Part shown: positions 33,122-54,003 of the stretch, in pieces
How the letters are laid out: each line of letters opens with the position of its first letter
How positions within the stretch are numbered: position 1 is the first letter of the stretch
NCBI GenBank assembly: GCA_017937925.1
Contig: JAGBCQ010000012.1
Coordinates: 275,939-339,938, forward strand
Source: Paraprevotella sp.
Lineage (GTDB): Bacteria > Bacteroidota > Bacteroidia > Bacteroidales > Bacteroidaceae
Length of the DNA stretch: 64,000 bases
Direction of reading: 5' to 3'
Translations under genes and position numbers: made by a program
The notes under the pieces: model-generated
What the model was told of the DNA's origin: nothing
Databases searched by the model: none
Seen by the model: only the letters and a program-made list of their open reading frames with translations

Positions 33122-34879
33122 TCAATTAACACTAGTGATTTTCTTTTTAAGTCCTAATGCGTTTAATGATTCATTAAACATTTTCTGTCTCTCTAATTTC
33201 GATATTTTATAGTGTTCCATCATAAATGTATCAAAATCTGCAAAAGGATTAAAAGACCAATGGATTCCATCTTTCTCATATTTGGCCGCTTTACTATAAT
33301 AATTATCAAATATGGTATGGAAACCAAATCTAGCAAAGGCTTGTCTATACCATATTAGTGTGTTTATGGACATTACAACAAGCGGATGACACATTTGATT
33401 TGGTAGCTCTTTATCAATTAAATCCTTATACCAAGAGTTGATGATACCTGATATACCAGGAATGACAAGATGAGTATCTTCCAATACTAGCACTGGGTAA
33501 TACGCCACTTCGTCTGGTATGTTTTTATCAAGCTCAAAAACATCATCGTCTATAAGTTTCATTTGATTAACAAGCTGCTTTACTCCCAAATCTTCAGGTT
33601 TCTTTTTCTCCTTACGCGATTTATCAGTGTTCTTGGTTGACTGATAGAGTTTTTGTTTCAACAAATCCTGCAGTTCTATAATGTCAGATTTATCTTTTAC
33701 CTCACCTTTAATTCTGATTGCTTTACACTCAAAGAGTATTATGTTATAATCTTCTCTAACATAGAAATCTGGTTGCTCGTCAATCTCTGTAGGGGCATTC
33801 AATTCTTCTACATCGTATTTAGTAGGCAAAAAGAACGACGTATGCTTTGAAAGAGCAGCAAGAGCTGCAGGTTGAAACAATCGTCGCTCAACAAATTCTT
33901 TATTATAAAATGCAAAAGCATTCTTGAATCCATCCTTTATATCAAAGAATAGACTGCTGTATAGTCTCTCTAGTAACAAGTGAAGACTATAAATCAGATA
34001 TTTACCACTATCAATTTTCACCAGAGGGTGTGAACGGAAAGTTCTATAATCTACATTATTATCTCTTGATTCCGCATCTTCTGCATCATACGGTATAGTA
34101 GCCGTTATGTCTATACAGAGATTATCCAGCACAGACTTACTTATAAGATGATCTTCATCTTGCAACTGATTATAGTCAAAGATAGGACATGCTTTTACAC
34201 CACTCTTTAAATATCCCATTGATAGCGACACTAATGACATCCAAGTTTTGGAATACTCATCAATTGAATTAATCCCCATCTTTTGCATGAATACTTCATA
34301 TGCATTAGCACATTTAGGGTGATTCTCTAAGAAATCCACTAGTTTCTTATAGTGTGTAATCTGACGAACAAAAGAATCACTCTGATTTTGATTAATTATA
34401 TCATTCTGCACGTAGTAGTTGGCGAACAACAGTGTTGCTAAATCTAATTGACCAACATGGGAAAAAGCCATCAAATTTTCATTAAGCATCAGCACAGAAC
34501 GAAACAAATCATATTCAAAATCTTCTTTTTGTCCTTCATTCTTGTACTCTTGTACGGGAATAGAAAAGGCCACTCGCATCAACTCTAATGCTGTTTTCAC
34601 TGTACAATAGCATACTCTATCCTGCCCTGTTGTATTAAGATATTTAGATATTTTTTCATTTAGACCAGGAATGTGTTTCTTGCTTACCTCTGAGAAAAAA
34701 GTATTATTATCGTCTGGAATAAAGGCTGCATTGCTGTAATTATTGCATAGGACATGACAGCAACGAACAATATACTCACGGCTATATTTCTTCAGTATTG
34801 TTCGCACGTCCAAATCTTTTTCCTTTGGAAATAAGTCGTGGAATTCTAGTATTTTTTGTATTGTATATTCCATTTTCAT
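33122..34879 (-). CDS. PD-(D/E)xK-like partner of the SIR2 protein
   Basis: The 585-aa protein matches no family I recognise as a whole. The middle carries a plausible PD-(D/E)xK nuclease core: PDFYV (Asp371), then ILFECKA with Glu384 and Lys386, the spacing expected of this fold. The remainder is helical, with no signal peptide or membrane segments. The start ATG shares its A with the SIR2 stop (TAATG), so the two are translated together, and a second ATG two codons on is an alternative start. As an always-coupled second gene it may be the DNA- or RNA-cutting effector, or a regulator of the SIR2 NADase. Its last codons end one base before a 69-bp direct repeat. Confidence 0.7.
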   Translation of the reverse strand: MKMEYTIQKILEFHDLFPKEKDLDVRTILKKYSREYIVRCCHVLCNNYSNAAFIPDDNNTFFSEVSKKHIPGLNEKISKYLNTTGQDRVCYCTVKTALELMRVAFSIPVQEYKNEGQKEDFEYDLFRSVLMLNENLMAFSHVGQLDLATLLFANYYVQNDIINQNQSDSFVRQITHYKKLVDFLENHPKCANAYEVFMQKMGINSIDEYSKTWMSLVSLSMGYLKSGVKACPIFDYNQLQDEDHLISKSVLDNLCIDITATIPYDAEDAESRDNNVDYRTFRSHPLVKIDSGKYLIYSLHLLLERLYSSLFFDIKDGFKNAFAFYNKEFVERRLFQPAALAALSKHTSFFLPTKYDVEELNAPTEIDEQPDFYVREDYNIILFECKAIRIKGEVKDKSDIIELQDLLKQKLYQSTKNTDKSRKEKKKPEDLGVKQLVNQMKLIDDDVFELDKNIPDEVAYYPVLVLEDTHLVIPGISGIINSWYKDLIDKELPNQMCHPLVVMSINTLIWYRQAFARFGFHTIFDNYYSKAAKYEKDGIHWSFNPFADFDTFMMEHYKISKLERQKMFNESLNALGLKKKITSVN

Positions 34880-37800
34880 TATGAATTAGCGAGACGGACT
34901 CCTATTTCAAATCCGTTTCTGACATCATTCTTTATATGTCCTTTTTCCATATAAGTCTGCCAAGCACTTAAACCTGCCCAGTCGGGCCAAATTTTTGTCA
35001 TAATACCAGCTATTTGATTTGCATAATATCTTATATCGTCTTTAATTTCTTCTGATACCGAACATCGTTCTATTCTATATGGCAGGTTATTCACCCACTC
35101 TTCTAACTTGACATGTGCTTCTTTACTTATCCCCTTATTCAATAAGACATCTCTTATAATACGAAGATATGTATGAGTACTCTCATCAAAGACATAAGAC
35201 ACCTTACTTATTATGTCTTTAATTATGGTTTGATTAACTTTTGAACCTTGCTTGGTAGCCGTATAGATTAAAGCCTGACCAGCATCACGGACTAATGAAC
35301 TAGATTCTGAGAATATTGCTTTATTCACGTAACTTTTGATAGTAGTCTTGTTCCATATGCCCCAATAAACAAGGTGAGTCATAATTGTTAATACTGGATA
35401 TCCGTATTTACGGTATCGTTCAATTACGTTTTTAAAAGACAGCCAGATATCATTCTCTTTTGACGGAAGACCCTCTACTTGGCTATAATAGTTCAAATAG
35501 GAGAAAATCCTCTCTACATGAGAACGAAAGCCTCCAAAGAAACTGTCTGAATCATCCTTTTTGAATGCATCTTCATTTTCTGTAAGAATTTTTATTACTT
35601 TGTTCAAGAATAGCGAGTGTTGTTCCTCTGTAAAACGAGGGAAGCCTATTTGAAGACGGAATAATTTATTCGAGATTTTATCTATGAAGGCAGAAGAATT
35701 CTCATTTGTGAAGTCTGTAGCCAAAAACGAATCTAACTCAGAAGCCGCTATGGATTTCATCGTATTTTCCTCTGCAGGAAACTCATAAAAAGATTCTAAT
35801 TTATCATCAGATAAAGGCGGTATTGTTCTCCATACATTAATGCACGTATCTAAAACAGAAGAAGTTAAATCATCTTTCTTTGTCCGTTTTAAAATTCTGA
35901 GTCTTTTGTAAGCTGCTTGTCGCTCTTTAATTACATCAGACGATAAACCTGTCATGGCGATGTTACCAGCCTCTATAGAATAATCAATTTCATCTTTCAA
36001 CAAATTGGGCATTTTAAAATCTTCTTCTCTAACGCCTGATTGCAAAATTGGTTGTTCCAAAGCTTTTTTCTGGCAGCGTTTCAACGATTCTCCAGACAAA
36101 TTGTCGTATAAAGTTTGGACTTGTTTTCCATCATACTTTCGTGAATGTTGACGATATACGATACAAAGCGCATTAAATACACGTTCCATTCTTTCCTGCG
36201 TAAGCAAAACTGAAAGTTTTACCAGTATGGGCAACAGACAAGTCAAAACTCGTTTCTGTAGGATTCTTCCTGCATACTGGTCAAGACCTATTTCGCAAGA
36301 TGCAATCGACTTGTCAAAAAACGCACAAGCATCTTCTCGCCTAATATGTAATAATGTTTCACGGTTTAATGCATTTATAGTTTTTGTCTCACAACATCTA
36401 ACGATCCATTGTAATGCATACTTCGGATAATAACGCATTAATCGCTCTATCATAAAAGTCTTAGTCTCAACTTCCGAAGAAAAACCTACAGGCATACCAA
36501 ATGGGAATCCTAACTTTTCATATAGTCGGAAATAACGAATCGCCCCATAATAATCTCCTCTAAATCCACTTCCGCCAAAATTCCATTGTTGACCAGTGTC
36601 TAATAGATTGAAGCCATGTGTTATTTGGTGATGCGATGGTTTGTTTTCTTCTTTAACAATCATGTCGCGACAAGTTCTCGCAATCTCAGCAAAGTCGAAA
36701 TCTGGGTTAGATTTATCCATGGAATACATATAATCCATCCTCCATAGGAAGAGTTCTATGGCAGAGCGAACAGAAGACAACTGTGCGGAGTACTTTGATG
36801 TTAGAATATTCCTTTTCACTGACTTCAATAAGTCACGAAGCATTACTTGGGATTCTCGCAACTGCCCCATCTCTATCAGCATCCCGGCTTTCCACAAGTG
36901 GCCTTGATAATCAAATGAGCGGAGGTTCCAGTCATCAACAACTTGTTGAACGTTGGAATAATTCAATGTCGAGATGGCATATAGACATTTTATATAATTC
37001 AACTGCCGTTTATGCTCGTAAGTGAGTTGAGAAATGTGAGTCTCAATGTTTTCTAACAGATGAACATAATCATCATCTGCACCTTTGAAACGATAGGTGT
37101 TGAGAAGAGAAAGCTTTAATCCCAATAGCTTCTGATATGTAGCATTGTCCAAACCATTTGCATCTTCTGAAGGCAATTGTTTTAAAGCTTGTAGATACCA
37201 TTCAATATCAGGAGATGCCAATGCAGTTTCAATACGCCAATTTACTTCGAACAAGAAATTCACTTGCTTTATAACATCATTAGCACACTTCGCATATATG
37301 TTGGTCCAGAAAGGTATATATTCCTTCGTGTCGGAAAATTCACGCATATGAGATGCTGGCAATACAATCCATCCTGGATACGATTCGCGTATCATCCTCA
37401 TTTCTTTTATAAGAGCATCGACGTCGTAATTTTCTCCGATGTGTATTGATGTATGGGCATTTTTTAACTCTCCCGACCAATCCGTTTTATATTCCTTGCC
37501 TATATACATCAAGAAAAAATCCAACGCTTCCGAGAAACCACTAACTTTTTTTATGTCTGCAAGGTTGATGACATCGATTCCAAGGTCGTGCGATAGATGA
37601 ATATTAGAATCGTGCATTTGGTTGTTATACGTGATCTGATACACAGGAGAGGCCTGTTCTCCCATAACATCACGCAACCAGCCTATCCAACTGAGAAAAT
37701 TTGGATCATCACCAGAGAACCCAATAAGGCAAAGAACATTTTCTATTAGAGACTGTCGCACTGTATTTACGAATTCTGGAAATCGTTGTGGATAAGTGCG

Positions 37801-38355
37801 ATAGTCTTCTTCGGTTATAATAAATGGACGTATATCGGGAAAACTGCCATGCAACTTAATCAACCTTGGATGAGGAGTGTACAATAATGTTTCCTTATTT
37901 GTTACCTTGTAGTAATACCTATCAGCTTCTATAAAAGCCTTTTCTAACAGTGTGTCATAATTTGTAGTAAAAACATCAGACCATGGCAATTTCATTAGTT
38001 CGATATGCAAGCGTCCCGGATATACACGCTCATCAGGCAGAGAATTTTGAATCAAAGATTCTAGCTCCCCTCTTCCTTTGGATGCCTCTACTTGAGATGC
38101 CAACCTAAGAACATTCTTGTATCTTACATTCTTATCGTCTGGCTTTTCTCCATATAGAGTCTCATAGAAGTCATCTGCAAGCTCGAACCAATCTTTCATA
38201 TGAGTGGCATCATCCATTTCGGCATTCTTGCTAAAGCCTGCACCAACTAAACAAGAAGCTTTTCCCTCATGTAAGTTCATACGTATAGCATTCAACTTCA
38301 TTTTAAGGGAAGGATTCAGCTCTTTATATAATTCATTGTATCTATTTTGTTTCAT
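34879..38355 (-). CDS. SIR2-domain defence protein with large helical C-terminal region
   Basis: The 1158-aa protein starts with a SIR2_2-type domain. The NAD loop is VGAGFS (37-42), the core is WSDVFTTNYDTLLEKA (Asn132, Asp134), the catalytic histidine is in KLHGS (His169), and GFSGDDPNFLSWIGWLRD is at about 212-230. About 850 residues of helical, repeat-like sequence follow with no recognised domain. Bacterial SIR2 proteins of this layout (for example DSR-type and Thoeris ThsA) deplete NAD+ on phage infection, and the long C terminus usually senses the phage; this mechanism is inferred here. It is the first gene of a two-gene cassette with a 90-bp upstream region that holds its promoter. 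Confidence 0.88.
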   Translation of the reverse strand: MKQNRYNELYKELNPSLKMKLNAIRMNLHEGKASCLVGAGFSKNAEMDDATHMKDWFELADDFYETLYGEKPDDKNVRYKNVLRLASQVEASKGRGELESLIQNSLPDERVYPGRLHIELMKLPWSDVFTTNYDTLLEKAFIEADRYYYKVTNKETLLYTPHPRLIKLHGSFPDIRPFIITEEDYRTYPQRFPEFVNTVRQSLIENVLCLIGFSGDDPNFLSWIGWLRDVMGEQASPVYQITYNNQMHDSNIHLSHDLGIDVINLADIKKVSGFSEALDFFLMYIGKEYKTDWSGELKNAHTSIHIGENYDVDALIKEMRMIRESYPGWIVLPASHMREFSDTKEYIPFWTNIYAKCANDVIKQVNFLFEVNWRIETALASPDIEWYLQALKQLPSEDANGLDNATYQKLLGLKLSLLNTYRFKGADDDYVHLLENIETHISQLTYEHKRQLNYIKCLYAISTLNYSNVQQVVDDWNLRSFDYQGHLWKAGMLIEMGQLRESQVMLRDLLKSVKRNILTSKYSAQLSSVRSAIELFLWRMDYMYSMDKSNPDFDFAEIARTCRDMIVKEENKPSHHQITHGFNLLDTGQQWNFGGSGFRGDYYGAIRYFRLYEKLGFPFGMPVGFSSEVETKTFMIERLMRYYPKYALQWIVRCCETKTINALNRETLLHIRREDACAFFDKSIASCEIGLDQYAGRILQKRVLTCLLPILVKLSVLLTQERMERVFNALCIVYRQHSRKYDGKQVQTLYDNLSGESLKRCQKKALEQPILQSGVREEDFKMPNLLKDEIDYSIEAGNIAMTGLSSDVIKERQAAYKRLRILKRTKKDDLTSSVLDTCINVWRTIPPLSDDKLESFYEFPAEENTMKSIAASELDSFLATDFTNENSSAFIDKISNKLFRLQIGFPRFTEEQHSLFLNKVIKILTENEDAFKKDDSDSFFGGFRSHVERIFSYLNYYSQVEGLPSKENDIWLSFKNVIERYRKYGYPVLTIMTHLVYWGIWNKTTIKSYVNKAIFSESSSLVRDAGQALIYTATKQGSKVNQTIIKDIISKVSYVFDESTHTYLRIIRDVLLNKGISKEAHVKLEEWVNNLPYRIERCSVSEEIKDDIRYYANQIAGIMTKIWPDWAGLSAWQTYMEKGHIKNDVRNGFEIGVRLANS

Positions 38356-38445
38356 GTTCGTCCTGTTTCTACTATACCGACTAGTATTAGCTGTACAAGT
38401 TTTATCGAGAGTGAAAATAATATCAATGTTATTTGCAGATTGCTT

Positions 38446-38514
38446 TTATTTATGTTTCTTGCCAAGCACCTTTTCCTCTAACTCTGGCAGATGCTCTAAG
38501 ATATTCTCGTCTAT
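38446..38514 (-). repeat. 69-bp direct repeat, copy within the two-TM gene
   Basis: This is the intact copy: the last 22 codons and stop of the two-TM gene, with 66 of 69 bases shared with 33052-33120. The SIR2 cassette begins immediately beyond its end. Confidence 0.92.
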
Positions 38515-39396
38515 CTTAATTGAGTATGTACCTGTTGTGTTATGGAGTGTCTTTTGTATCGTGCCCTTTTCGGTATTCTTGAACCAAGAATGGAACAGAT
38601 TGACTACAAACATAGCCAGCACCTCGGAGTCGATGTTATATTGATGGCCGATGTTCCAAGCAAAGTTCTTTAGGTCGGTCTGCTTCAGTTTCTTCTTTTC
38701 AATCTTCACCGATACGCAATTCACAATGCCATTGTATTGAACAAGCAGTTTAACGGCCTCCTCAATCTGGAAAAGCTCTTCATCACTGAATCCGTGAGGA
38801 AGAAATACAAGACGAGTATATCTAAGGATCTTGTCAAGTTTATCCTTCTCTTGCTTTTCTTTCGCTTCTGCCATTTGGGTGCGGTCAATGTGCAGTTGTT
38901 GAATGAACTGAGCCAAATCTCGCTGTGCGTTTTTCAGCGTCTCTTCGAGTTCTGACATAATCTGTGGCTTCAAATCATTTACCTTTTCCGATGTCTGAGG
39001 CTCTTGTTGTACTGGCTGTGGAACCACATCACATGGTGGTGTTTCTACCGCAGGCTTTGTTTCCAGCTTGTTCTGAATATCCTCCAGATGCTTTATGATG
39101 CAAGCATCCATGTTCTCTTGGTCTGCTCGATTGTTCAACTCCTTTCTGTTGCTCTTGAAGTAAGCATATAGACATTGTTTGATGCCATGAAGCAACAATA
39201 CGAATACAGCATATCCACCTATAAATATAGGTATAGTGACAAGAAAGCAAAGTAGCTCCTTGTCCTCACCTATCAGTTGTTGAGCAATTTTGTAAGCGCC
39301 AACTATGTAGGTAATAATAATAAGCCCTAAGAGTGACGTTCCAATATAGCGATGCACTCCTTTTGCAGATGGAACGGGAAAGATGTCTATCTCCAT
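38446..39396 (-). CDS. Two-TM, coiled-coil protein paired with an XRE regulator
   Basis: The start is taken at ATG 39394-39396 (MEIDIFPVPSAKGVHRY), 2 bp after the XRE stop; an in-frame upstream start would overlap that gene. The 316-aa protein has two membrane helices (TSLLGLIIITYIVGAY and LLCFLVTIPIFIGGYAVFVL). A charged coiled coil follows (SELEETLKNAQRDLAQFIQQ), then a C-terminal soluble domain (FAWNIGHQYNIDSEVLAMFV). I do not recognise the family. Its last 22 codons are duplicated at 33052-33120 on the other side of the SIR2 cassette, which implies that the cassette was inserted at this gene's 3' end while its reading frame was preserved. Confidence 0.75.
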   Translation of the reverse strand: MEIDIFPVPSAKGVHRYIGTSLLGLIIITYIVGAYKIAQQLIGEDKELLCFLVTIPIFIGGYAVFVLLLHGIKQCLYAYFKSNRKELNNRADQENMDACIIKHLEDIQNKLETKPAVETPPCDVVPQPVQQEPQTSEKVNDLKPQIMSELEETLKNAQRDLAQFIQQLHIDRTQMAEAKEKQEKDKLDKILRYTRLVFLPHGFSDEELFQIEEAVKLLVQYNGIVNCVSVKIEKKKLKQTDLKNFAWNIGHQYNIDSEVLAMFVVNLFHSWFKNTEKGTIQKTLHNTTGTYSIKIDENILEHLPELEEKVLGKKHK

Positions 39397-39398
39397 AA

Positions 39399-39692
39399 TT
39401 ACAAAGTCTTTATTTTCTTCTGTGCAACGATAATAGCATCGTTGCACAAGTCCCGTTCCTGCTCATCTTCAACAGCATCAATGAACTTGTCTGCTAACCA
39501 CAAGGTAAGCATTTCCTTTTCATCCTGATGAAGATACTCCGCAAGTTTGATGACCTGCTCACGCTTTGCTCTTCTGTCACCACGTTCAATCTTACTGAAC
39601 ATTGGGGTGTCAATCTCTAGGAATGCAGCCAACTGGCGTTGTAGCAAACCTTGCTCTTCTCTGAGCTCTTTAATCTTATCTCCGAATAACAT
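39399..39692 (-). CDS. XRE-family HTH regulator
   Basis: The 97-aa protein has an N-terminal Cro/C1 helix-turn-helix (IKELREEQGLLQRQLAAFLE, then IDTPMFSKIERGDRRAKREQ) and an acidic helical C terminus. It is followed after 2 bp by the two-TM gene and preceded by the AlbA_2 gene by 12 bp. A regulator tightly paired with a membrane coiled-coil protein suggests an autoregulated two-gene unit, perhaps toxin-antitoxin-like, but no toxin is recognised. Confidence 0.85.
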   Translation of the reverse strand: MLFGDKIKELREEQGLLQRQLAAFLEIDTPMFSKIERGDRRAKREQVIKLAEYLHQDEKEMLTLWLADKFIDAVEDEQERDLCNDAIIVAQKKIKTL

Positions 39693-39704
39693 ATCACTAT
39701 AATC

Positions 39705-41189
39705 TTATTTTTCTTCTTTGTTTATAATCTCCCAATAACCGCCAAAATCACCACCGATACGAAAGATGAAACCTTCTTCCTTCAATCGATTGATATGCTT
39801 TTGAATAGTACTGGGGGCTACTCCAATGGTGTTAGAAAGCATTTTTCTTGTGATTTTCGGATTCTCTTTTATCAGTCGAAGAACTTCTGCAATGGTTGCG
39901 TCAATATCTGTCTGACCACTTGTCTGACCACTTGTCTGACCACTTGTCTGACCACCTGTCTGACCACTTGTCTGACCACCATGTTCTGTAACGTTATCAG
40001 GAATAACGTAAACACCTTCTACTCCATCAACATTAAACTTTGGCAGAGTGAGAATGAAACAATTCCAAGGTGTAGAGAATTTAGGATCCATACCTTCGGT
40101 GTAGCCATCATGTCCTTTGTATGCAGAAACTATTTTTTTGAAGCCTGAGCCACGACGCTCCATATACTTCAAACGACTAAATATGTCGGCAAGCACAGGA
40201 TTGCGACGACGAGAAGCCATATTCATCACATCCATATCTTTGATAGAGCCTCCATCAAGGAGACCGCCAGGTGAGAATATTTCAAGTCGGTCATCATACA
40301 TATCAATGTGTACTTCACTACCCAACTCAAGATAATTACGATGGATAAGAGCATTCACCAATCCTTCCTCCACGGCACGTTCTGGGTACTCTGGATATTC
40401 CAGGCGATTATCAGAGGTCTTGCGCCATGCTTTCTTAGAGTTACGACGTACAAAATCAAGTCCAGCTTGCAAAAGTGTAACTAAACTTCCAGTGTATTCT
40501 TCATCGTCCAGAGCGTCCATCACTCCATTAGCCTTGTCTAGTCCATTCCAACGTGTACAGAATAGGCGAGAGTGACGCACTGGGGAATAGTCTGCAAGCA
40601 GAGCACCGGCATTCGTCAGTTCGCCCTTCTCATTGACGATTCCAAAAGACTCATAGTCACTATCTTCAAATGAACGATTGGTGCGCTTGAAGTATGTCGC
40701 GCGTAGTACAGTGAAAGCCATATCCTCAAATTTCCAACGGGACACAAGACAGTCATACGACATATTAGACCCCTTTAGCACCAATTCTTTATGTTTCGAC
40801 ATACTTGCTACTACACTTTCGTTGCCCACACGAACGAACGCTTGCATCTGCCCATCACCAATATAGTAATAAGGAGTCTGTCCCCCTGGCAAAACATCCA
40901 ATACCACAAAGTTTTTCCCTTCTGCCTTGACAAACGAAAGATTAAAGTCCGGGATAGGATCAAGGTGTGTCTTGATGGTTTCACTGATTTTCTCAGCATC
41001 GCCCTTTGCATCTGCGAGTCCAACTAGCGTATCATCGTCTGCAATACCCCAAACAAGTTTGCCTCCAATGCCATTGGCAAAGGCACTCACACTCTTGCAC
41101 CAGCTTTTGGGTTTCTTCACCTCCAAAGCCTGTTTCTTATCGTATTCTGTAGCTTCGCCTATCAACTGGCAAATATTAAGCTTCTCCAT
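39705..41189 (-). CDS. AlbA_2/Schlafen-like ATP-binding transcriptional regulator with repeat linker and winged helix
   Basis: The 494-aa protein has an N-terminal AlbA_2 domain (ALEVKKPKSWCKSVSAFANG, then GGKLVWGIADD) and a GHKL-type ATPase segment (EGLVNALIHRNYLELGSEVH; DRLEIFSPGGLLDGG; RRRNPVLADIF). A Gly-Gln-Thr repeat linker and a C-terminal winged helix (NTIGVAPSTIQKHINRLKEE, then GFIFRIGG) follow. Proteins of this architecture are often labelled RecG-like or divergent AAA-4 but lack helicase motifs; DNA binding with nucleotide-dependent control is the likely job. The linker is encoded by a 12-bp tandem repeat. It lies between an AlbA_2 fragment gene upstream and the XRE gene downstream. 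What it regulates is unknown. Confidence 0.85.
   Translation of the reverse strand: MEKLNICQLIGEATEYDKKQALEVKKPKSWCKSVSAFANGIGGKLVWGIADDDTLVGLADAKGDAEKISETIKTHLDPIPDFNLSFVKAEGKNFVVLDVLPGGQTPYYYIGDGQMQAFVRVGNESVVASMSKHKELVLKGSNMSYDCLVSRWKFEDMAFTVLRATYFKRTNRSFEDSDYESFGIVNEKGELTNAGALLADYSPVRHSRLFCTRWNGLDKANGVMDALDDEEYTGSLVTLLQAGLDFVRRNSKKAWRKTSDNRLEYPEYPERAVEEGLVNALIHRNYLELGSEVHIDMYDDRLEIFSPGGLLDGGSIKDMDVMNMASRRRNPVLADIFSRLKYMERRGSGFKKIVSAYKGHDGYTEGMDPKFSTPWNCFILTLPKFNVDGVEGVYVIPDNVTEHGGQTSGQTGGQTSGQTSGQTSGQTDIDATIAEVLRLIKENPKITRKMLSNTIGVAPSTIQKHINRLKEEGFIFRIGGDFGGYWEIINKEEK
39911..39982 (-). repeat. 12-bp tandem repeat coding a (G/S)GQT linker
   Basis: Six near-identical copies of TGACCACTTGTC (two with C for T) lie back to back. 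The repeat is translated as GGQT/SGQT units inside the AlbA_2 protein. The unit is a multiple of three, so slippage would change linker length and keep the frame. Confidence 0.9.
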
Positions 41190-41590: not shown

Positions 41591-44233
41591 TTATACTTTA
41601 GAGGTTTCGCCATCTTCTCGTTTAGGCAAAATAGATGATGGTATTTTGTTAATTAGTCCGAGGTCTGGATTTTTTACTCCGTAGTCATGCTTTGCCAAGC
41701 ACTTTTTTATTAATGTAGGAAATGCTCTCAAATCGCTGTCATCAAGAAATCCGAAACGATATTGGGCTCTCATTTCATTTAAGATTTCAAATAAGAAAAA
41801 AGAGTCTTTGGGCAAATCAATTATATATTTCTCAATATAAGAATACCATTTTGGAGGTCTACTAATAATAAGAAGAATTGCAATCTGCTGTTTTACCAAA
41901 GGTGTAGAAGGATGCTCAAATGCATCATATAATAATGGGGCTACTTTAGAAGCATAAATATCCTCTTTGAAAAAGCCAACAACATTAGTAAGAATGACAA
42001 ATAGTATATTTTTTGCTCGCTCCTCCTCTGTTTCTCCAAAATCATCAGAAAGCAAAAAACCAGCACCTCCATATTCAGCACGCCCTTTTGCTGCTAAAAC
42101 AGGTATAAGGGCAAAGAGTACTTTTGCAATTTGTAACCATCCACGGAGAATTTCTTGCAATAATTCTTTTTTTATGGAAGCATCAGCATAGTCACTATTT
42201 CTTAAGGCTCTAGATGAGGATTTTATCTCCTGCATCAAATTATATACATAATATTCCTCAAAGAATTCATGAATAACGACATTCTGATTATATGGTGTTA
42301 ACTGATTATAATGATTGTCCTGAAATCTATCTTTTATTGTTACAGGCAAACCAGAACTTAAAACCATATCACTAACTTCCTGCTGCATACGTTCTATATG
42401 CTGAGATGCAGGATTCCATTTTGCAAAACGATAAGGATTAAAAGAGTCTGGTATTGATATCCTTGCAAATACCGTATCACACGTGCTTTTGATATCTTGC
42501 AACAAGACAGTTAACGCATCTGTTCTGTTACGATCAATTCCCGTGTAAAACTCTATTATTTCAGGATAATCTAAATACTTCTTTGAAATAAAAATGTATT
42601 TAGCAAAATCATTGTTGGCATGCATCCTTAAGGCCGCAAAATATAGCAGCCAAAAAGCAGATTTAAAAGACACATGTCCATCCATCTCAAGTATGATGCT
42701 ATTTTGTAATAGTATATCGTACAAGGATTTAACATTTAGATTAATTAGGTTCGTATCACAAAAACCTCTTGATTTTCTAAAGAATTCGTCAGTTGTAAAT
42801 TCTGAGCGGTTCTCACGAATTAACATTTCGCAAAAGCACCCCATAACAAACTGACAATCTTTTACGTCAGGTGTAGTGTTATACTTCGGTAAATCTGAAA
42901 ATTCGAAAAGAACATACAAGACATCCTCCAGCATCTGGCATCTATTAACAGGATTGTTATCAAACTTTTTCTCGTCAACTTTCAATAGCGTAAGACAATT
43001 CTGTGGTGTCCTGTGAATATTTAGTGTTGCAATATCGTTTACAATCTTCTCCAATAATGTTTCATCATCGGCTATTTTGGCGACATGGTTATACTCTGTC
43101 ACCACATAGCGAACTTGGCTACGTGTCATTGGAAGAAGAGTAAAAGAACTAAATTCTCTTTCTATTTTTACATCCTCAAGTTTTCCTTTTAAAAATTTTG
43201 TCCCCTCTACAGTACGCATTAACAATACTGGAATGTCGGCGAAAATATCACAAACAGCTTTTAGTTTTTTTAAGGTACCGCCTTCTGTCTGGGACCACTC
43301 ATCTAAAACTACAGCCTCAATAGGGATATTAGTATCAATCCCTAAATCCTGGTAATCGTTGTTGATGTATTGCTCGATATTGTTTGCTTTCAACTTTCTA
43401 GAATCAATATATAGCCAGTGTGATCCTTTCTTCCATGCTTCTAATACCATATAATGTGACAAACATGTCAAGCCAAATTGTGGCGGAGCAGAAATAATAA
43501 CAGACGACGGATTTGCAATAATATCGGCTACATCTACATGTTCAACTTTGTTATCATCAGGATTAATAGAAATTTCACTTCTGGAACTTATTATTGGCTC
43601 AACCCAAATCCGAGGTTGGCCACTAAACAATTTTAAAGCCTTATTTAGCCTTTCTTCTAAAATGAAATGCACACGAGTTAAACGTTCTGCATCACTTCGA
43701 TTATCGCTTGTATAATGGTCATTGAAGTATTTGTTCAGATGCTTACGCAATTTTTCTTCGAAATCATCAATTCCATCATACACTGAATACATACATTTTT
43801 GGCCCACCACCTGATCCCGGAAAGAGCGGACTTTCTGATATTGTTCAATATCTATCTTACTAGGATTGATAGCTTCGTCATTGAAGTAGAACATGATCTC
43901 CATGTTCTTTAATTCTTGTGCTTTCTTATACGCAATCTCAAACTCTTCGACGGTACCAGACTCGGCTCGGTTTGTTGGAGAACCAAATTTAGTATACATT
44001 ATACCAATGAATAAATCGTATTTGTCTTCTATTTGGCGATTTATTACATCTTGCCCATCTTCTCCAATTGCTGGGTAAACATCATTTTCCCATCTTAATG
44101 ATTGGAGTTCAAATCCATATGGTACTCCAATGCCATTGTTTATTTCAGCAAATACTTTCTCGCATATATTACGCTCTGCCGTAGTATCACCAGGTGAAGC
44201 AATAAAGCATTTAATAATCTTTTTTTGTTCCAT
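41591..44233 (-). CDS. DUF4062 protein with STAND-like P-loop region lacking the lysine
   Basis: The start is placed at ATG 44231-44233 (MEQKKIIKCFIASPGDTTAE); ATG 44284, preceded by AAGGA, would add 17 residues. The 880-aa product has an N-terminal DUF4062 domain (FIASPGDTTAERNICEKVF; YDLFIGIMYTKFGSPT; SGTVEEFEIAY), a TIR-like fold often used as a sensor or effector. Residues about 240-400 resemble a STAND/NACHT ATPase: the P-loop-like SAPPQFGLTCLSHY has Leu where Lys is expected, and EAVVLDEW is a Walker-B-like strand. A long helical C terminus follows. It is the last gene of a five-gene run. Whether it hydrolyses ATP is doubtful given the missing lysine. Confidence 0.75.
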   Translation of the reverse strand: MEQKKIIKCFIASPGDTTAERNICEKVFAEINNGIGVPYGFELQSLRWENDVYPAIGEDGQDVINRQIEDKYDLFIGIMYTKFGSPTNRAESGTVEEFEIAYKKAQELKNMEIMFYFNDEAINPSKIDIEQYQKVRSFRDQVVGQKCMYSVYDGIDDFEEKLRKHLNKYFNDHYTSDNRSDAERLTRVHFILEERLNKALKLFSGQPRIWVEPIISSRSEISINPDDNKVEHVDVADIIANPSSVIISAPPQFGLTCLSHYMVLEAWKKGSHWLYIDSRKLKANNIEQYINNDYQDLGIDTNIPIEAVVLDEWSQTEGGTLKKLKAVCDIFADIPVLLMRTVEGTKFLKGKLEDVKIEREFSSFTLLPMTRSQVRYVVTEYNHVAKIADDETLLEKIVNDIATLNIHRTPQNCLTLLKVDEKKFDNNPVNRCQMLEDVLYVLFEFSDLPKYNTTPDVKDCQFVMGCFCEMLIRENRSEFTTDEFFRKSRGFCDTNLINLNVKSLYDILLQNSIILEMDGHVSFKSAFWLLYFAALRMHANNDFAKYIFISKKYLDYPEIIEFYTGIDRNRTDALTVLLQDIKSTCDTVFARISIPDSFNPYRFAKWNPASQHIERMQQEVSDMVLSSGLPVTIKDRFQDNHYNQLTPYNQNVVIHEFFEEYYVYNLMQEIKSSSRALRNSDYADASIKKELLQEILRGWLQIAKVLFALIPVLAAKGRAEYGGAGFLLSDDFGETEEERAKNILFVILTNVVGFFKEDIYASKVAPLLYDAFEHPSTPLVKQQIAILLIISRPPKWYSYIEKYIIDLPKDSFFLFEILNEMRAQYRFGFLDDSDLRAFPTLIKKCLAKHDYGVKNPDLGLINKIPSSILPKREDGETSKV

Positions 44234-44324
44234 ATTCTTAAATGATATTGAGTTCAACGATCCATTTTTTTGCATTGAAAGCATTTTGTCCTTGTTTCCA
44301 AGAATGGTATGTTTATATTACGAA

Positions 44325-44498
44325 CTACCATTTAATTTTCTTTACACAAAATAAATCTCTTTTTATTGTCTCTTTCATCTCCTTTTGGAAATTTTCGAAT
44401 GATAGAGATTTTTCATAATCACCATTTTTAATATGTTGAGATGCCGCCAATGCTTTTTTGCTTGAATTTTTGTTGGAATAAATTGTAGCCATATTCAT
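44325..44498 (-). CDS. 57-aa protein overlapping the Ntn hydrolase gene
   Basis: The start ATG shares a base with the stop of the Ntn hydrolase gene (TAATG), which supports it as a real, translationally coupled gene despite its size; an ATG two codons later is an alternative start. The product is MNMATIYSNKNSSKKALAAS, then QHIKNGDYEKSLSFENFQKE and a basic C-terminal helix (MKETIKRDLFCVKKIKW). The size and charged helical pattern recall small antitoxins, but I do not recognise a family. The DUF4062 gene starts 40-91 bp downstream. A role as inhibitor or adaptor of its neighbours is inference only. Confidence 0.65.
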   Translation of the reverse strand: MNMATIYSNKNSSKKALAASQHIKNGDYEKSLSFENFQKEMKETIKRDLFCVKKIKW

Positions 44499-45775
44499 TA
44501 TTTTTGTCGTTCGAAATAGTGAGGATTAAGTTCTCTATTAAAATAATGTTTTCGCTTTATCCATATAAAACCGTCTCCTTTTGTTATTACAGCTACATCT
44601 ACTGGTCCCCCAACACTTTCTTCATCAGTTGTAATATGCCTTTTTAAACATGTCATACGTACAAGACTTTCTGCCATATCTGCAAGGTCTTCTTTTGACA
44701 AGAAAGCAACAGTGTTCAAAAGTTTGTCAATATAGTTGTTTTGGATATAATCATTTAAAAAACTAATAAATGAACTTGTTTGGTTGGATATTTCAATATT
44801 ACGTAATGCATCTAGTAAAGTATCCGGAGCACCTGCTTGGGATAGTACATCTATAATGTTGTTTCTAAAGCCATCAAATGCTAATAATAAACTCTTGTTA
44901 ATGGTATCTCTTAATTTTTGGTCAATACCTCTGACTACAGTGTTGGACACATCCGTTTGAGCGAACGGAGCAACACAAGCGTTTTTTTGATTAGAAACTT
45001 CATAGTTACTTAGCTCTACATATTTTATTTTGTTGTCAAAAGCTAAAGAGACTTCATAGTGATAATATGAAGGAAATAATTCCTCCTCACCGTATCCCCA
45101 GAAAACAAGGCCTGTTTGAGATAAATAAACTATTGTATCTGCTGATATTATAGAAAAAAGCGTAGAAAGAAATATTTTGGGGAAATCTTTAGGACATGCT
45201 GTGTCCAGTATTAAGTCAGATAATACGGAGTCGATGACTTCATTAGCATAATTCTGAAATTGACTTATTTTATATGAATTAAATTCAGATGTTTTGTTAT
45301 GCAATTTGTAGTCTTCCGACAATCCTGTTAGAAATGAAATCATTTCACTGAATAATGAATTTGAATCAATATCTGTCTTGCTTAGCTCTAATTGCTTTAT
45401 GGCTGTTGATTTTGCTTCTTCCTTAAGTTGGTGAGCAAGATAGGCTACTTGAGCTTTTTGATCTTCAACACTAACTCTTGTCAGAATAACACTATGAAGA
45501 TACCCCCAAAAATCTTCTGCATAATCTTTCAACTTGGGGAATGATTTGTCTTTTAAATGAACATCACGATATGTTTTAAAAATAATTTCCCATGGGATTC
45601 CATGAAAATCTAAGTTGTTATAAATAGCAATGCCAACTGGATATTTTTTGGATAATTCAAATATCTTGTTGGTGTTGTTTGTTATTTTATTAGTTGCGGA
45701 CGTGGAATAAGTTGCGGCACTATCTGCAGCAATAGCAATTCCCCTTTTGTTTAGTGTTCCTACAATAGCCGTCAT
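44498..45775 (-). CDS. Proteasome-beta-like Ntn hydrolase family protein
   Basis: The start is ATG 45773-45775, giving Met-Thr; a TTG two codons upstream would hide the Thr and is rejected. After normal Met removal the protein (425 aa) would begin TAIVGTLNKRGIAIAADSAA. Thr1 and Asp17 fall at the proteasome-beta active-site spacing, and Lys36 (NKIFELS) or Lys29 could serve as the Lys33 equivalent. The strand pattern GIAIAADSAAT... KIF... VGIAIY repeats that of proteasome/HslV subunits. The remaining 300 residues are helical and unrelated to proteasomes that I know. It lies between the methyltransferase-HIT gene (13-bp gap) and the 57-aa gene (overlap). Peptidase or amidase activity is inferred; the substrate is unknown. 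Confidence 0.72.
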   Translation of the reverse strand: MTAIVGTLNKRGIAIAADSAATYSTSATNKITNNTNKIFELSKKYPVGIAIYNNLDFHGIPWEIIFKTYRDVHLKDKSFPKLKDYAEDFWGYLHSVILTRVSVEDQKAQVAYLAHQLKEEAKSTAIKQLELSKTDIDSNSLFSEMISFLTGLSEDYKLHNKTSEFNSYKISQFQNYANEVIDSVLSDLILDTACPKDFPKIFLSTLFSIISADTIVYLSQTGLVFWGYGEEELFPSYYHYEVSLAFDNKIKYVELSNYEVSNQKNACVAPFAQTDVSNTVVRGIDQKLRDTINKSLLLAFDGFRNNIIDVLSQAGAPDTLLDALRNIEISNQTSSFISFLNDYIQNNYIDKLLNTVAFLSKEDLADMAESLVRMTCLKRHITTDEESVGGPVDVAVITKGDGFIWIKRKHYFNRELNPHYFERQK

Positions 45776-45788
45776 ATTCAAAATTTAT

Positions 45789-46658
45789 TTAATACTTCTG
45801 TTTACTTGGAATAACTCCCCTTACTCCTCCTTTGGGATTCTCAACATCTCCTTTGTAGCGTGGAATCAAATGCATGTGGCAATGGAATACACTTTGTCCA
45901 GCATATTCACCAACATTGATGCCTATATTGTAGCCGTCAGGATGGAAACGTTCATCAACTTTCTGCTTCACATATTGCAACACTACATTCATTGCCTCGC
46001 GCTCGTGATTAGTGAGGTCAAAATAGTTGGCAACATGCCGTTTGGGAATTATCAGGGCATGACCTGGAGAAACAGGATAACCATCGTAGAATGCAACGCA
46101 CGTAGCAGTCTCACATATTATTTCAACCCTCCTTGACAACCTACAGAAAGGACATTTCTCACCGTCCTTGCGAGGTAGTTTGTTAAAGTGGTTGTATTGA
46201 TACAGTTCGTAACTCTTGTTGACAACGAGACTCTTGTATGGTAATTTGACGTTGCACTGATAAGTATATTGTTTATGGATGGCGTGGAGTCGGAAACCTT
46301 CTTCTGTCAAGTCACGACGTACTGCAAAATATGCAGTTCCTTTTGGAGAGAGCAGATTAGTAACATTCATTAATACCTCTGCTTGGGCATAGGGCTCAAG
46401 AACATTCAGTACATAATTACAGAAGATGGTATCAAACTTTCCTTCGGGGAAGTCGGGCCGATAGTAATAATCATATCCTGTAATGTCGTATCCTTGCTTT
46501 TTCAGTTCGTCAGTATCGAATCCGAAACCGCAACCGAAGTCAAGAATCTTTCCTTTCAGCAGTTGATGTTGCATGAGGTATCTAGTCGGCACAGAAAAGT
46601 CTGTGCGTTTGATAGCCGTGAGGTAGGGATGATTTATTTTCTCTGGTTCCATAATCAT
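45789..46658 (-). CDS. Fusion of SAM-dependent methyltransferase and HIT hydrolase domains
   Basis: The start is ATG 46656-46658 (MIMEPEKINHPYLT), 1 bp after the HNH stop; MEPEK two codons on is also possible. The 289-aa protein has an N-terminal class I methyltransferase with SAM motif ILDFGCGFGFDTDEL (about 38-52) and the DTIFCNYVLNVLEP motif IV region. A possible zinc knuckle (CPFC, 168-171) follows, then a complete HIT domain: SPGHALIIPKRHVANYFDL and the HxHxH catalytic triad HCHMHLIPRY (259-268). HIT proteins hydrolyse or transfer nucleotidyl groups. The fusion suggests linked methylation and nucleotide processing of the same molecule; the substrate is unknown. Confidence 0.85.
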   Translation of the reverse strand: MIMEPEKINHPYLTAIKRTDFSVPTRYLMQHQLLKGKILDFGCGFGFDTDELKKQGYDITGYDYYYRPDFPEGKFDTIFCNYVLNVLEPYAQAEVLMNVTNLLSPKGTAYFAVRRDLTEEGFRLHAIHKQYTYQCNVKLPYKSLVVNKSYELYQYNHFNKLPRKDGEKCPFCRLSRRVEIICETATCVAFYDGYPVSPGHALIIPKRHVANYFDLTNHEREAMNVVLQYVKQKVDERFHPDGYNIGINVGEYAGQSVFHCHMHLIPRYKGDVENPKGGVRGVIPSKQKY

Positions 46659-46659
46659 T

Positions 46660-47730
46660 TTAGTATTTCCAGACCTCAAACCCCATATTAAGGGCAATTT
46701 GGTTGATTGGGTTAAACGTTCTTTCGTATAGTTCGCGGAAATGAGCACCATCCATGTCCGCCAGTTCTCTTGCCGTATAACCGAGAGAAATAAAATCCTC
46801 CATAACCTTTGGTTCCTTATTATTCTTAATTAGCAATTGTATGGAATGATGTTGTAATTCAGCCAATTTAGGCAAGTAAACGTTCAAGTCTGGGAGATTA
46901 TTACTCTTTGAAGAATTGATGCTGCCGTCAGAAGGAATCAGGTTCCATAACAAATCATGAGAAACAAAACTCCATGGGATAAAATGATCAAGATCATAAT
47001 CTTTCGGGTGAAGTTCCTTGTCAGTATAGATGCAATGAATAGGACCTCCTATTTCCATCACCATATCCCAATAATTATGCTGCCTTGCAAGTGAATTTCT
47101 AACTTCAGGACGAATCAATTTGCTAGAGATGGCTGGTACGTTGGGATTCCTTGTTTGCAAGAATAACGTAAGATTCCAATAAGCAAAATCTATTAAAATA
47201 TTGTAATGTGTATGCAGATAAGTGTCCCAAGCATTATTGAGAACGATGTAGAAATCCGAGTCCTCCTTGTACAAAGCATATAGACTTCCATTCTCCAATG
47301 TCTGGGAACGTTTGACCATCTCCTTGTCATCAGAGGTGTCAATCCATGGGCGCAGGAAACGAAAGGGAACATTCAGTGTAAGTGTGTTTAATAGTCGCTT
47401 TATCTGTTTGTCCTCTAATCTGCTTTTCAAGCCTTCAATGATTATCTGAGAATTGGCATCAATGGGAATCTGTGTGATGTGCTGTAAATCCATCACAATA
47501 TCAAATAGAGAATCGCTCTTACCAAAGGACAGGCGGAAATAGTGAATAGGATACCATGCATTTGCGACCATTCTGATTACGATGTCCCATACGCTAATTC
47601 TCGGATTGTCCGATTTTGCGTGTATCTGCATAATCGATACAAACCAGAAGAATTTGTATGTTGCAACCGTATTTGAGAAAATCTTCCCAAGCCGGTTCGT
47701 GGTAAGTATGTCAGACGTCGGTATTTGCAT
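46660..47730 (-). CDS. HNH-endonuclease domain protein, first gene of the five-gene operon
   Basis: The 356-aa protein has a C-terminal HNH-type motif: HCIYTDKEL, then YDLDHFIPWSFVSHDLLWNL (Asp248-His249), then INSSKSNNLP with the final Asn/Lys region. This is the DHxxP...N...K pattern of HNH nucleases, with only one Cys of the usual first CxxC pair. The N-terminal 200 residues are helical and unassigned. It leads the operon; an exact TATCTTTG promoter box lies 74 bp upstream. It ends 1 bp before the methyltransferase-HIT start. Cleavage of phage or plasmid DNA is a natural guess, not shown. Confidence 0.8.
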   Translation of the reverse strand: MQIPTSDILTTNRLGKIFSNTVATYKFFWFVSIMQIHAKSDNPRISVWDIVIRMVANAWYPIHYFRLSFGKSDSLFDIVMDLQHITQIPIDANSQIIIEGLKSRLEDKQIKRLLNTLTLNVPFRFLRPWIDTSDDKEMVKRSQTLENGSLYALYKEDSDFYIVLNNAWDTYLHTHYNILIDFAYWNLTLFLQTRNPNVPAISSKLIRPEVRNSLARQHNYWDMVMEIGGPIHCIYTDKELHPKDYDLDHFIPWSFVSHDLLWNLIPSDGSINSSKSNNLPDLNVYLPKLAELQHHSIQLLIKNNKEPKVMEDFISLGYTARELADMDGAHFRELYERTFNPINQIALNMGFEVWKY

Positions 47731-47803: not shown

Positions 47804-47811
47804 CAAAGATA
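47804..47811 (-). promoter_or_regulatory. -7 box of the HNH/MTase-HIT/Ntn operon
   Basis: The minus strand reads TATCTTTG, an exact match to TAnnTTTG, leaving a leader of roughly 65 nt. No other good promoter box was seen in the gaps further down the five-gene run. Confidence 0.5.
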
Positions 47812-48500: not shown

Positions 48501-49736
48501 TTAACGGTGTGGACCTTTATATTTTCTAATTGGTTTGCATAGCCAGTTGGCATGTTGGGCACAACGTCGAGCCTTCTCACGCTCATCCTCATCATCGTCT
48601 TTTCCCCAGTTTGATGGTGTGGAGCCACCGCCACCACAGGATTCAGAAACGGTTGTGGCAGCATCAACGTAGTTCATGAACAGTAGCATAGCCACATTCA
48701 AGACGTTTTCAATAGGCACAGATTCGTCAGGTGATTCGATGGTCTCCTTCATAGCCTTGTAAGCATCTACTGGCATTACGATGGAATAATTCTTTCCATC
48801 AACAGACAATATTTTCCTGAAGACAGATGGCGCTTCTGACTTGGATTGGGCGACGCTCTGATGTGCAGAGTTGTGTTCTGTGAACGACTTTCGTTCTGTA
48901 GTCTGAGTGGTGCCAATAGTATAACTGGGCTTATCAACGCTTGGAGCTACAGGATGAAGCTTCTTCCATGTGGCTTCAAGTTTAGGAATGGTTAGGTTAC
49001 GACCTTTGCCCAACGTGGATGACTTGAAACGGGAGTTACCGCGAAGTATGGTATATCCATGTAATATACCTTGCTTGTCACGTTGCTCATGCACTTTATA
49101 ACCACGACTTTCAAGCCCGTGCTTATAACTGCTCCAGTCGTAGCTTGACATTCCACGAAGGATGTTATAACAAGCTTCCGTTATCTCCTTCTCGTGTGTC
49201 TTGTGAATATCTTCGGGCAACTCCCATCCACGTTCAATGTTGATGGCATGGGCAGCCTTGACTGCACTATCGCCAATGAAGGAGTCATTCATCAGGTTTC
49301 CGTCAAGGTCGATTCGGTTGATGAGAATATGAAGGTGAGGGATGCCTGACTTCGCATCAAAGTGAAGACAGGCAAATATCTGTGCTCTGTCCAGATTGAA
49401 CTTGCTTTTTCCTTTCTTCTTACCTTCTTGGGCTTGGACTTCTTTTTTGAACTCATCGAGAAACCGAATCGCATAGTCGTACCAGTCATTGAGTGTCCAG
49501 CCCTTTGTTTCTTCAAGGGATGGGGAAACCTCCATTCGAAGGGTCGGCTTGGTGACAGGCTTGCGTCTGAATTTCGGTTCATACTTCTGATGGATAGTTT
49601 CCATCGCTCCCCACATGGCGAGAGGAGTAAGCCCATCGCCAAGATTACGTGTCAGCACTATGTCAGCACGATTATGCTTGGTGGCATAGTTCGTCATGGC
49701 TGAGCCATGCGATATAGACCTCGCTTTTGCTATCAT
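48501..49736 (-). CDS. Relaxase (MobA/VirD2-like mobilization nuclease)
   Basis: The 411-aa protein begins with MIAKARSISHGSAMTNYATK. It carries the three-histidine metal site of HUH relaxases: HFDAKSGIPHLHILINRID with His125, His134 and His136. The relaxase nicks one strand at oriT and stays bound to the 5' end during transfer. The Gly-rich tail near the C terminus (CGGGGSTPSNWGKDDDEDER) is a linker. It lies 4 bp after mobC and before the membrane accessory gene. No coupling protein or conjugation genes are present, so the element is mobilizable rather than self-transmissible. Confidence 0.92.
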   Translation of the reverse strand: MIAKARSISHGSAMTNYATKHNRADIVLTRNLGDGLTPLAMWGAMETIHQKYEPKFRRKPVTKPTLRMEVSPSLEETKGWTLNDWYDYAIRFLDEFKKEVQAQEGKKKGKSKFNLDRAQIFACLHFDAKSGIPHLHILINRIDLDGNLMNDSFIGDSAVKAAHAINIERGWELPEDIHKTHEKEITEACYNILRGMSSYDWSSYKHGLESRGYKVHEQRDKQGILHGYTILRGNSRFKSSTLGKGRNLTIPKLEATWKKLHPVAPSVDKPSYTIGTTQTTERKSFTEHNSAHQSVAQSKSEAPSVFRKILSVDGKNYSIVMPVDAYKAMKETIESPDESVPIENVLNVAMLLFMNYVDAATTVSESCGGGGSTPSNWGKDDDEDEREKARRCAQHANWLCKPIRKYKGPHR

Positions 49737-52713: not shown

Positions 52714-54003
52714 CTACTGATTATTGGAACCGTCAGGAGACTTAATCTGGTCGTTTGAGAGGGAAATGCGGATTGCATCAGCGGCAGCCTCTTTCTTCTC
52801 ATCGACAATCTTAGCGTATATCTGTGTTGTGGTCACCTTTCTATGACCAAGCATCTTGCTGACGGTATAGATGTCTGTTCCATTGGTAAGCTGTAGTGTG
52901 GCATAGGTATGGCGGAAGCAATGGAAGGTTATGTGTTTCGTGATACCAGACGCTTCAATCCATTTCTTGACAGGTCGGTTAATCCATGACGGATCCTGCA
53001 AACCTTCAAATACAAGTCGGTCTGCATCGCCTCGTTCACCACAAAGTAGATAGGCTTGGTCAGATATCGGCATGTACTCTACACCTTTGGTCTTCTGCTG
53101 GGTGAAAAGAAGTCGATAGTGTCCCACGTTTTTCACCACATCACACCATTTCAACTGCTTGATATCACAGTGGCGCAATCCTGTTAAAGCGGAGAAAAGA
53201 GCAGCTCTTCTGAGAATATCGCTCTCGCATGGAGTAGAGGCAAGTTGGTTGAGTTCCTCCAATGTGAGGTATTCGCGTTGGCTTTCCTCGTAGGAAATGT
53301 TCTTCACTTTGGCTGCAAGGTCTATAGTCAGGTAACCATCAATGAATGCTTGATGGAGTCCTGCCTTGAAGATGGAGAAATAGGTAGAAGCTGTATTTGC
53401 CGATATGGTACCAGACTTACCTCCGCCCTTAGGCGCATTGAGGAGATAGTCCCTATAATCTTCAATGAGCGTTAGGTCGATGCAGCCAAATGGAAGAGGT
53501 TTGTTGCCTGTGTATAGTTTCATCAATGCCAGCTCACGGCTCCAGTTTACTTGAATTGACTTGGAGCTATTCCTATGGCGCTTCTCCTTCAGTTCATCGA
53601 AGTATTTGATGAAATCACACTTCGCTCTTTCGTTTTGAGCTGCTTGTTCAGCCTCGCTATCTGTGTACAATGACTGATTATCGTATTCGTGCTGGCGAAG
53701 GTCACGAACCTTATCGGCAAAGATACATGCCTCTTGGTCCTTTTGTGAACGGCACAAGATGATTCCATTGGCATCACGCTTGGGGCGATAGTAGGCTTTA
53801 CCATCGGCCAATGTTCTTCCAGAACTGTTCTTGTCAAAGATAGGAGTAGTTATAAACCGCCCAAGTGGCTCATGTTTGCGTAGAGGCTTATCCTTGCCTG
53901 GCTCAAAGACAGGAAAACTTTCTATGAGCAACGACCACTGCTCTTTGTATTCGGATTTGCGGAGTATTACCTTGAATACCGTGCGCTTCATTGGAGTCTT
54001 CAT
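52714..54003 (-). CDS. Tyrosine recombinase (site-specific integrase)
   Basis: The 429-aa protein has an N-terminal arm/SAM-like region and a C-terminal tyrosine-recombinase catalytic domain. The visible residues are Arg in ALTGLRHCDIKQLKW, His-x-x-Arg in HCFRHTYATLQL, the later His in MLGHRKVTTTQIYAKI, and the Tyr nucleophile in that last segment. It most likely inserts the element at the 3' end of dnaK, since its gene lies within 0.8 kb of a 15-bp repeat covering the dnaK stop. Its start overlaps the stop of the preceding HTH gene (ATGA), so the two are made together. Confidence 0.94.
   Translation of the reverse strand: MKTPMKRTVFKVILRKSEYKEQWSLLIESFPVFEPGKDKPLRKHEPLGRFITTPIFDKNSSGRTLADGKAYYRPKRDANGIILCRSQKDQEACIFADKVRDLRQHEYDNQSLYTDSEAEQAAQNERAKCDFIKYFDELKEKRHRNSSKSIQVNWSRELALMKLYTGNKPLPFGCIDLTLIEDYRDYLLNAPKGGGKSGTISANTASTYFSIFKAGLHQAFIDGYLTIDLAAKVKNISYEESQREYLTLEELNQLASTPCESDILRRAALFSALTGLRHCDIKQLKWCDVVKNVGHYRLLFTQQKTKGVEYMPISDQAYLLCGERGDADRLVFEGLQDPSWINRPVKKWIEASGITKHITFHCFRHTYATLQLTNGTDIYTVSKMLGHRKVTTTQIYAKIVDEKKEAAADAIRISLSNDQIKSPDGSNNQ

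Follow-up and report, generated by a model that had tools for sequence, protein, structure and literature searches.

A proteasome-like hydrolase and its small partner form a candidate phage-exclusion module beside a second gene pair in Paraprevotella

Do five closely packed genes in a Paraprevotella sp. genome make up one defence system, or do several units lie side by side? The genes sit in a window (the whole stretch of DNA analysed here: 64,000 nucleotides, positions 275,939 to 339,938 of contig JAGBCQ010000012.1, assembly GCA_017937925.1). They encode an HNH nuclease, a methyltransferase (MTase) fused to a HIT domain, a proteasome-like N-terminal nucleophile (Ntn) hydrolase, a 57-residue protein and a DUF4062 protein. 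The original prediction, made from the DNA letters alone, joined all five in one multi-step system. Our comparisons point elsewhere: the reading we prefer, to which we give about even chances, is that the locus holds two independently mobile two-gene modules plus an unrelated defence candidate, and that the Ntn hydrolase and its small neighbour act as a superinfection-exclusion (anti-phage) module. The two genes at the centre of this reading are:

44498..45775, minus strand: Ntn hydrolase, proteasome-beta-like, 425 residues, beginning Met-Thr (ATG at 45775), phrog_5990
44325..44498, minus strand: small partner open reading frame (ORF), 57 residues from 44498 or 55 residues from the ATG at 44492

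For the Ntn gene we favour the ATG at 45775, since Thr then stands directly after Met, as it does in relatives. The 57-residue frame overlaps the Ntn stop by 1 bp (stop/start); here relatives suggest the ATG at 44492 as the start.

Relatives of the Ntn protein were found at 541 loci in genome contigs and 162 in viral contigs, and the best 80 of each were retained. A start could be assigned at all but 5 of these 160 loci, giving 155 proteins and, at 80 % identity, 113 representatives. In the alignment, the residue right after the start Met is Thr in 111 of 113 and Ser in 2, and all 113 have Asp18 and Lys37, the counterparts of proteasome Asp17 and Lys33 (L041 was left out of the count for its length). 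Since we picked starts that stand before a Thr or Ser close to the aligned position, the start is partly a matter of choice; the residues are not. With a profile of 105 family sequences, the three best-matching sequences in the PDB are archaeal proteasome beta subunits (E 6e-4), aligned over N-terminal and C-terminal segments that flank a long insert. PF00227 is matched by 35 of the 105 members at E <= 1 (best 1.6e-4), and the window protein is a full-length match to phrog_5990 (PHROGs v4, unknown function; E 5e-102). At the level of sequence, these results show the Ntn protein to be remotely related to proteasome beta subunits, with its Thr1 directly after the start Met.

The small gene is a regular companion. 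An ORF of 34-95 residues starting between -60 and +25 bp from the Ntn stop is found in 103 of 110 representatives (3 of the 113 were left out for short flanks), compared with 193 of 740 control genes from the same loci. A strict terminator lies within 120 nt (<=120) after the small gene in 40/103 cases and at the Ntn/small junction in 0/106; base shuffles, which rather than other genes served as the control for this test, gave 2/515. We also compared the ratio of nonsynonymous to synonymous rates (dN/dS) in 37 pairs that are not mutually independent, 15 of them with saturated synonymous sites in the small gene. This ratio is 0.06-0.27 for the small gene in 21 of the 22 computable pairs and 1.23 in one (L070/L080, from a group without a clear partner). 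Between the window and L032, a locus from a Bacteroidales metagenome-assembled genome (MAG), it is 0.13 for the small gene and 0.08 for the Ntn gene. Homologues of the window's small protein sit after the Ntn gene in L002 and L032; overall, the partners are of several sequence types with no obvious common motif. At E <= 1 the 57-residue protein itself matches nothing in PADLOC, NCBIfam or PHROGs; its single Pfam match, at E 0.1, is far under the cut-off of that family. Taken together, the comparisons show a two-gene unit by position and sequence, in which the Ntn gene is followed at once by a gene for a dedicated small protein that evolves faster.

Some variants of this layout were also seen. 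In five gut Bacteroidales loci (L046, L056, L068, L072 and L090) the Ntn C-terminus is different and there is no clear small partner, possibly marking a partnerless branch. The search for Ntn-partner fusions turned up just C-terminal extensions, in L149 and L017, and the idea was dropped. L009, from the Bacteroidales genome G107, encodes on its minus strand (reverse-complement 949-1677) an Ntn-like protein of ~240 residues without the long insert; it starts MSLLVTLYVPEGIIIAGDSRLTL, ends with a VGGPIDIIAIKP segment, and may be a minimal cousin of the family.

Where the pair occurs bears directly on what it might do. Titles of records with the Ntn gene name Bacteroidota, Bacillus and Clostridium types, a cyanobacterium, Acidobacteriota, Nitrospirae, Planctomycetota, candidate phyla and a Euryarchaeota MAG; because MAG contigs may be misbinned, we treat this list as resting on the titles. 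Ten plasmid records extend the range to alpha- and gammaproteobacteria and Enterococcus, and there are also matches in 13 phage records. The Ntn and small genes are the final genes of the streptococcal satellite phages Javan103 and Javan468, and the Ntn gene lies further inside Javan421. It is the last gene of the Javan85 phage record, after the lysin; it stands between Q and holin in a Providencia phage, beside holin and lysozyme genes on the other strand in a Stenotrophomonas phage, and among head genes in a Porphyromonas prophage. In Javan103, a toxin-antitoxin-like pair (Gp49-like plus HTH_3; L025:8601-9252) lies directly before the Ntn gene.

A DNA search of E. coli found the Ntn gene in 22 of 5426 genomes. 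Nine of the 22 copies are at least 99 % identical and lie beside a Q gene; in the one that we read, the Ntn strand is opposite to that of Q and the lysis genes. The remaining 13 are divergent and match in part only. Two of these were read, and both place the Ntn gene beside the helix-turn-helix (HTH) repressor of a Rac-type prophage; one such Rac-type copy has a 34-residue partner with a terminator straight after it.

Around 43 viral representatives, 9 of 82 neighbouring proteins match the repressor family phrog_4 and 8 match the Q family phrog_79; among 128 neighbours at cellular loci there are AbiH, AbiE, PtuA, SIR2 and type I methylase families, one or two each. Very long proteins are excluded from both neighbour sets, and the counts are among the first 25 families listed. 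Temperate phages and satellites carry the Ntn gene outside their core genes, as expected of an accessory gene. These contexts show, as far as the records' gene content can, that prophages, satellite phages, plasmids and chromosomal islands all serve as carriers of the Ntn pair.

Two recurrent settings lie outside phages. In four flavobacterial loci (L040, L054, L055 and L066) a gene of constant length and position stands just upstream of the Ntn module; since 4 of the 128 cellular neighbours match ALAD, this gene is probably hemB and the site an insertion hot spot, on the supposition that the two observations concern the same gene. On rhizobial plasmids (L011, L013, L014 and L017) a multiubiquitin / ThiF-type E1 cluster is found 1.5 to 3 kb away from the Ntn gene, placing a proteasome-like protease near a ubiquitin-like system, which may be chance.

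What might such a pair do for the elements that carry it? Judging from these contexts, it probably keeps rival phages out; the anti-phage role suggested in the original prediction is plausible. In the mechanism that we propose, the pair would be expressed from the resident element as a superinfection-exclusion module. Removal of Met would expose the Thr1 nucleophile with no need of a propeptide; the enzyme would be a protease cutting proteins, and the small partner could either restrain it or aim it. On infection, the protease would then cut host or phage proteins, halting the incoming phage. More tentatively, and with somewhat less than even confidence, we picture a mobile immune module shared by phages, satellites, plasmids and bacteria, made of a self-exposed proteasome-type Thr protease and a tiny sensor or inhibitor: a proteasome-fold superinfection-immunity effector spread over many phyla, in which the fast-evolving small protein would set which phage triggers it. 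The known role of proteasome-type proteases is housekeeping degradation. If the proposal holds, phage-phage conflict would gain a new class of protease effector, compact and often encoded beside repressor, Q or lysis genes, and the E. coli prophage copies make the module directly testable.

Several observations count against this picture. The small ORF is absent from 7 of 110 representatives, and neither the Ntn nor the small protein matches a PADLOC model at E <= 1. Kinship with the proteasome is distant: each aligned segment scores weakly by itself (i-Evalues 33 and 0.22), and the window protein scores 12.8-13.1 bits (E 0.074 and 0.096) against a PF00227 cut-off of 22.4, so that we call it proteasome-like and not a family member. 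Two sister Rac-type prophages hold other small genes in the Ntn slot, and no family match ties those genes to a known exclusion family. Strand is mixed at viral loci, where surrounding genes are mostly opposite in 13/41 and mostly on the same strand in 14/41, so strand alone is not decisive. The commonest cellular neighbours are not defence genes (ALAD 4 and beta-lactamase-like 3 of 128).

Three other accounts of the pair need to be weighed against superinfection exclusion. The two genes could be an addiction module of the toxin-antitoxin kind, in which the protease is harmful unless the small protein inhibits it, so that the element is retained and no response to phage is required. Tight spacing, a small and fast-evolving second product, and broad mobility that includes plasmids and satellites would all suit such a module; addiction alone, however, would not predict the frequent location beside prophage repressor, Q and lysis genes, and in Javan103 the toxin-antitoxin-like Gp49 and HTH pair already precedes the Ntn pair. 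We think addiction unlikely. The position beside a repressor or Q, and among head genes in the Porphyromonas prophage, would equally suit a protease that serves its element's own life cycle by trimming or destroying the repressor, a late protein or a capsid protein. That account is distinctly unlikely in our judgement: the Ntn gene is also found on plasmids with no phage genes in view and at chromosomal loci, unrelated genes replace it in sister prophages, and its strand is opposite to that of the late genes in several phages. Finally, the enzyme could be an amidase or acylase that acts on a small molecule or peptide and not on proteins. Other Ntn families hydrolyse small amides, and no AAA unfoldase stood out beside the Ntn gene in the family scans of its neighbours, the sole place searched; the closest sequence relatives found are nevertheless proteasome beta subunits, and the Thr1 / Asp17 / Lys33 set is conserved. 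An amidase or acylase seems to us very improbable.

The question of the five genes turns on the other features of the window:

46660..47730, minus strand: HNH_4 nuclease, first gene of the HNH/MTase-HIT pair (Pfam HNH_4, E 7e-11)
45789..46658, minus strand: MTase-HIT fusion, second gene of that pair (ATG at 46658; Pfam HIT 2e-26, Methyltransf_23 2e-11)
41591..44284, minus strand: DUF4062-STAND protein, PDC-S60-like, a neighbour outside both pairs
47804..47811, minus strand: TATCTTTG promoter-like box, 73 bp upstream of HNH, at chance level taken singly
48501..49736, minus strand: relaxase, MobA/VirD2-like, of the mobilizable element
52714..54003, minus strand: tyrosine integrase

Much of what had been predicted here stands. 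Translation of the window places all five genes on the minus strand, in one direction and with the positions and spacing described: 1 bp from HNH to MTase-HIT, 13 bp on to Ntn, and 40 bp from the small gene to DUF4062. Domain calls agree with the proposed identities (HNH_4, MTase plus HIT, a proteasome-like Ntn hydrolase that is sub-threshold by itself, and DUF4062/STAND), and the genes are indeed cargo of a mobile element. A consensus scan of the window found no minus-strand terminator-like site between genes, one within the Ntn gene and one within the DUF4062 gene, such sites being about as frequent as in shuffles (6 vs 4.1); by these signals, a single transcript across the genes is plausible. 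The TATCTTTG box said to lead the operon is present upstream of HNH. Its count, 8 copies in the window, is near shuffle level (mean 3.8; 5/100 shuffles reach 8), so that taken alone the box says little.

The proposal that all five genes form one multi-step defence system fares differently. Besides the tight spacing in the window, it can draw on L032, where the first four genes recur in the same order (identity 77 % for HNH, 90 % for MTase-HIT, 83 % for Ntn and 68 % for the small protein) in different surroundings, with leucine-synthesis-type genes before the block and a SIR2-like gene in place of DUF4062 after it (labels from reading translations). This is, however, the only one of 182 Ntn-relative loci (not dereplicated, with flanks of 1.5 to about 10 kb, some just 1.5 kb) that also holds HNH and MTase-HIT; similarity to DUF4062 appears at 2/182, on the opposite strand and 2.4 and 3.4 kb off. 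Among 295 genomes of the order, we found Ntn in 9 (the matches in G210 and G130 are partial, and G107 has a remote relative whose alignment covers 65 residues), HNH in 11 (E <= 1e-10), and MTase-HIT or HIT alone in 22 (E <= 1e-20); the window's own genome is the sole one that the Ntn list has in common with the other two. The pairs also differ in G+C content (0.39 and 0.42 vs 0.33 and 0.28), and a comparison of the window with L032 finds synonymous sites saturated in HNH and MTase-HIT and unsaturated in Ntn and the small protein. Because the genes so rarely co-occur, in the order's genomes and at Ntn loci alike, and their constituents occur apart elsewhere, we rejected a single five-gene system, which would now surprise us greatly. 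On this comparative evidence, the supposed system is two separate gene pairs side by side, with the DUF4062-STAND gene as a third neighbour, unlinked to the pairs elsewhere and a defence candidate unrelated to them. The case illustrates how adjacent two-gene modules can mimic one operon.

The second pair has its own distribution. HNH lies directly upstream of a full-length MTase-HIT gene at 11/11 loci of the order (the HNH match being partial and weak in four) and at 15 of 16 loci from the wider phylum, L287 being the exception. The SAM motif and HxHxH of the MTase-HIT protein are conserved, and so are the HNH catalytic motifs. The association is not invariable: among the 10 other HNH-positive genomes of the order, no MTase-HIT gene lies within about 1.5 kb in two (G268 and G250), and a third (G271) carries HIT alone. 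What follows the pair also varies within the order, from Hachiman HamAB (L228) and a DdmD-like helicase (L229), each 21 bp downstream, to a PbeC/LmuB-like protein (L235), a TOTE primase-helicase 361 bp downstream (L236), a protein without a match (L227) and an amylase-type gene (L234); in L230, PDC-M30 genes lie just upstream of HNH. The order set had suggested a general leader of defence operons. We rejected this because in the wider phylum, where neighbours were viewed without a family-library scan, the downstream genes vary or face the opposite way, and we limit the claim to this: the pair can precede defence genes. HNH/MTase-HIT thus reads as a separate accessory of putative nuclease and nucleotide chemistry, able to precede different defence genes. 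Between L226 and the window (45789-47730), MTase-HIT is 85 % identical and HNH 52 %, as if HNH evolves faster or was exchanged.

Beyond DUF4062, positions 39705-41189 encode a Schlafen AlbA_2 / HATPase / winged-helix protein carrying an in-frame run of TSGQ-type repeats. The SIR2 cassette noted in the original prediction spans 33122-39447, with a SIR2_2 protein (34882-38355) between 585- and 333-residue proteins that have no Pfam match.

How do these genes compare with known systems? No named system matching the set of five was found, in line with what had been predicted. NCBIfam holds no model that usefully matches the Ntn protein, and annotated plasmid, phage and E. coli records with Ntn relatives label the product a hypothetical protein. 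Neither the Ntn family nor this gene composition was found in the literature among the matches listed, with partial coverage of subscription papers and preprints; nor, with the same partial coverage, did we find a description of the HNH/MTase-HIT pair, which stands before Hachiman and the DdmD-like helicase among others. The Ntn hydrolase and small protein appear to be an unstudied module.

The closest matches to named defence families belong to the neighbours. The DUF4062 protein, outside both pairs, is under the Pfam cut-off for that domain (21.6 vs 24.7 bits); its first ~175 residues match PADLOC PDC-S60 (6e-57), and its middle part matches NCBIfam DS8_antiphage (1.3e-9, far under the model cut-off), both matches being partial. 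In the second pair, the HIT half matches Thoeris ThsC (8e-12, PADLOC), and the N-terminal part of the MTase half matches the phosphorothioation-associated methyltransferase TIGR04096 (8e-17), each far from full length or cut-off; unlike in those families, the two halves are fused here and paired with an HNH_4 nuclease. Thoeris II also contains a HIT protein, hypothesised to help turn over the signal nucleotide (PMC8565338).

For the Ntn protein, phrog_5990 is a cluster of unknown function with no mechanism attached, and its listing does not note the small partner. In mode of working only, with no sequence relation claimed, the proposed module resembles the Lit protease of prophage e14 and SieB-type exclusion, in which a prophage-encoded protein stops another phage. 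In sequence, the likeness is to archaeal 20S proteasome beta and HslV (PF00227), with which the Ntn protein shares the Thr1, Asp17 and Lys33 equivalents and a C-terminal GG-x-x-DVAVI segment. It differs from them in its length of about 425 residues, in the long insert between the matched segments, in apparently having no propeptide, and in being encoded by a mobile gene that has a small partner in place of a known ring ATPase.

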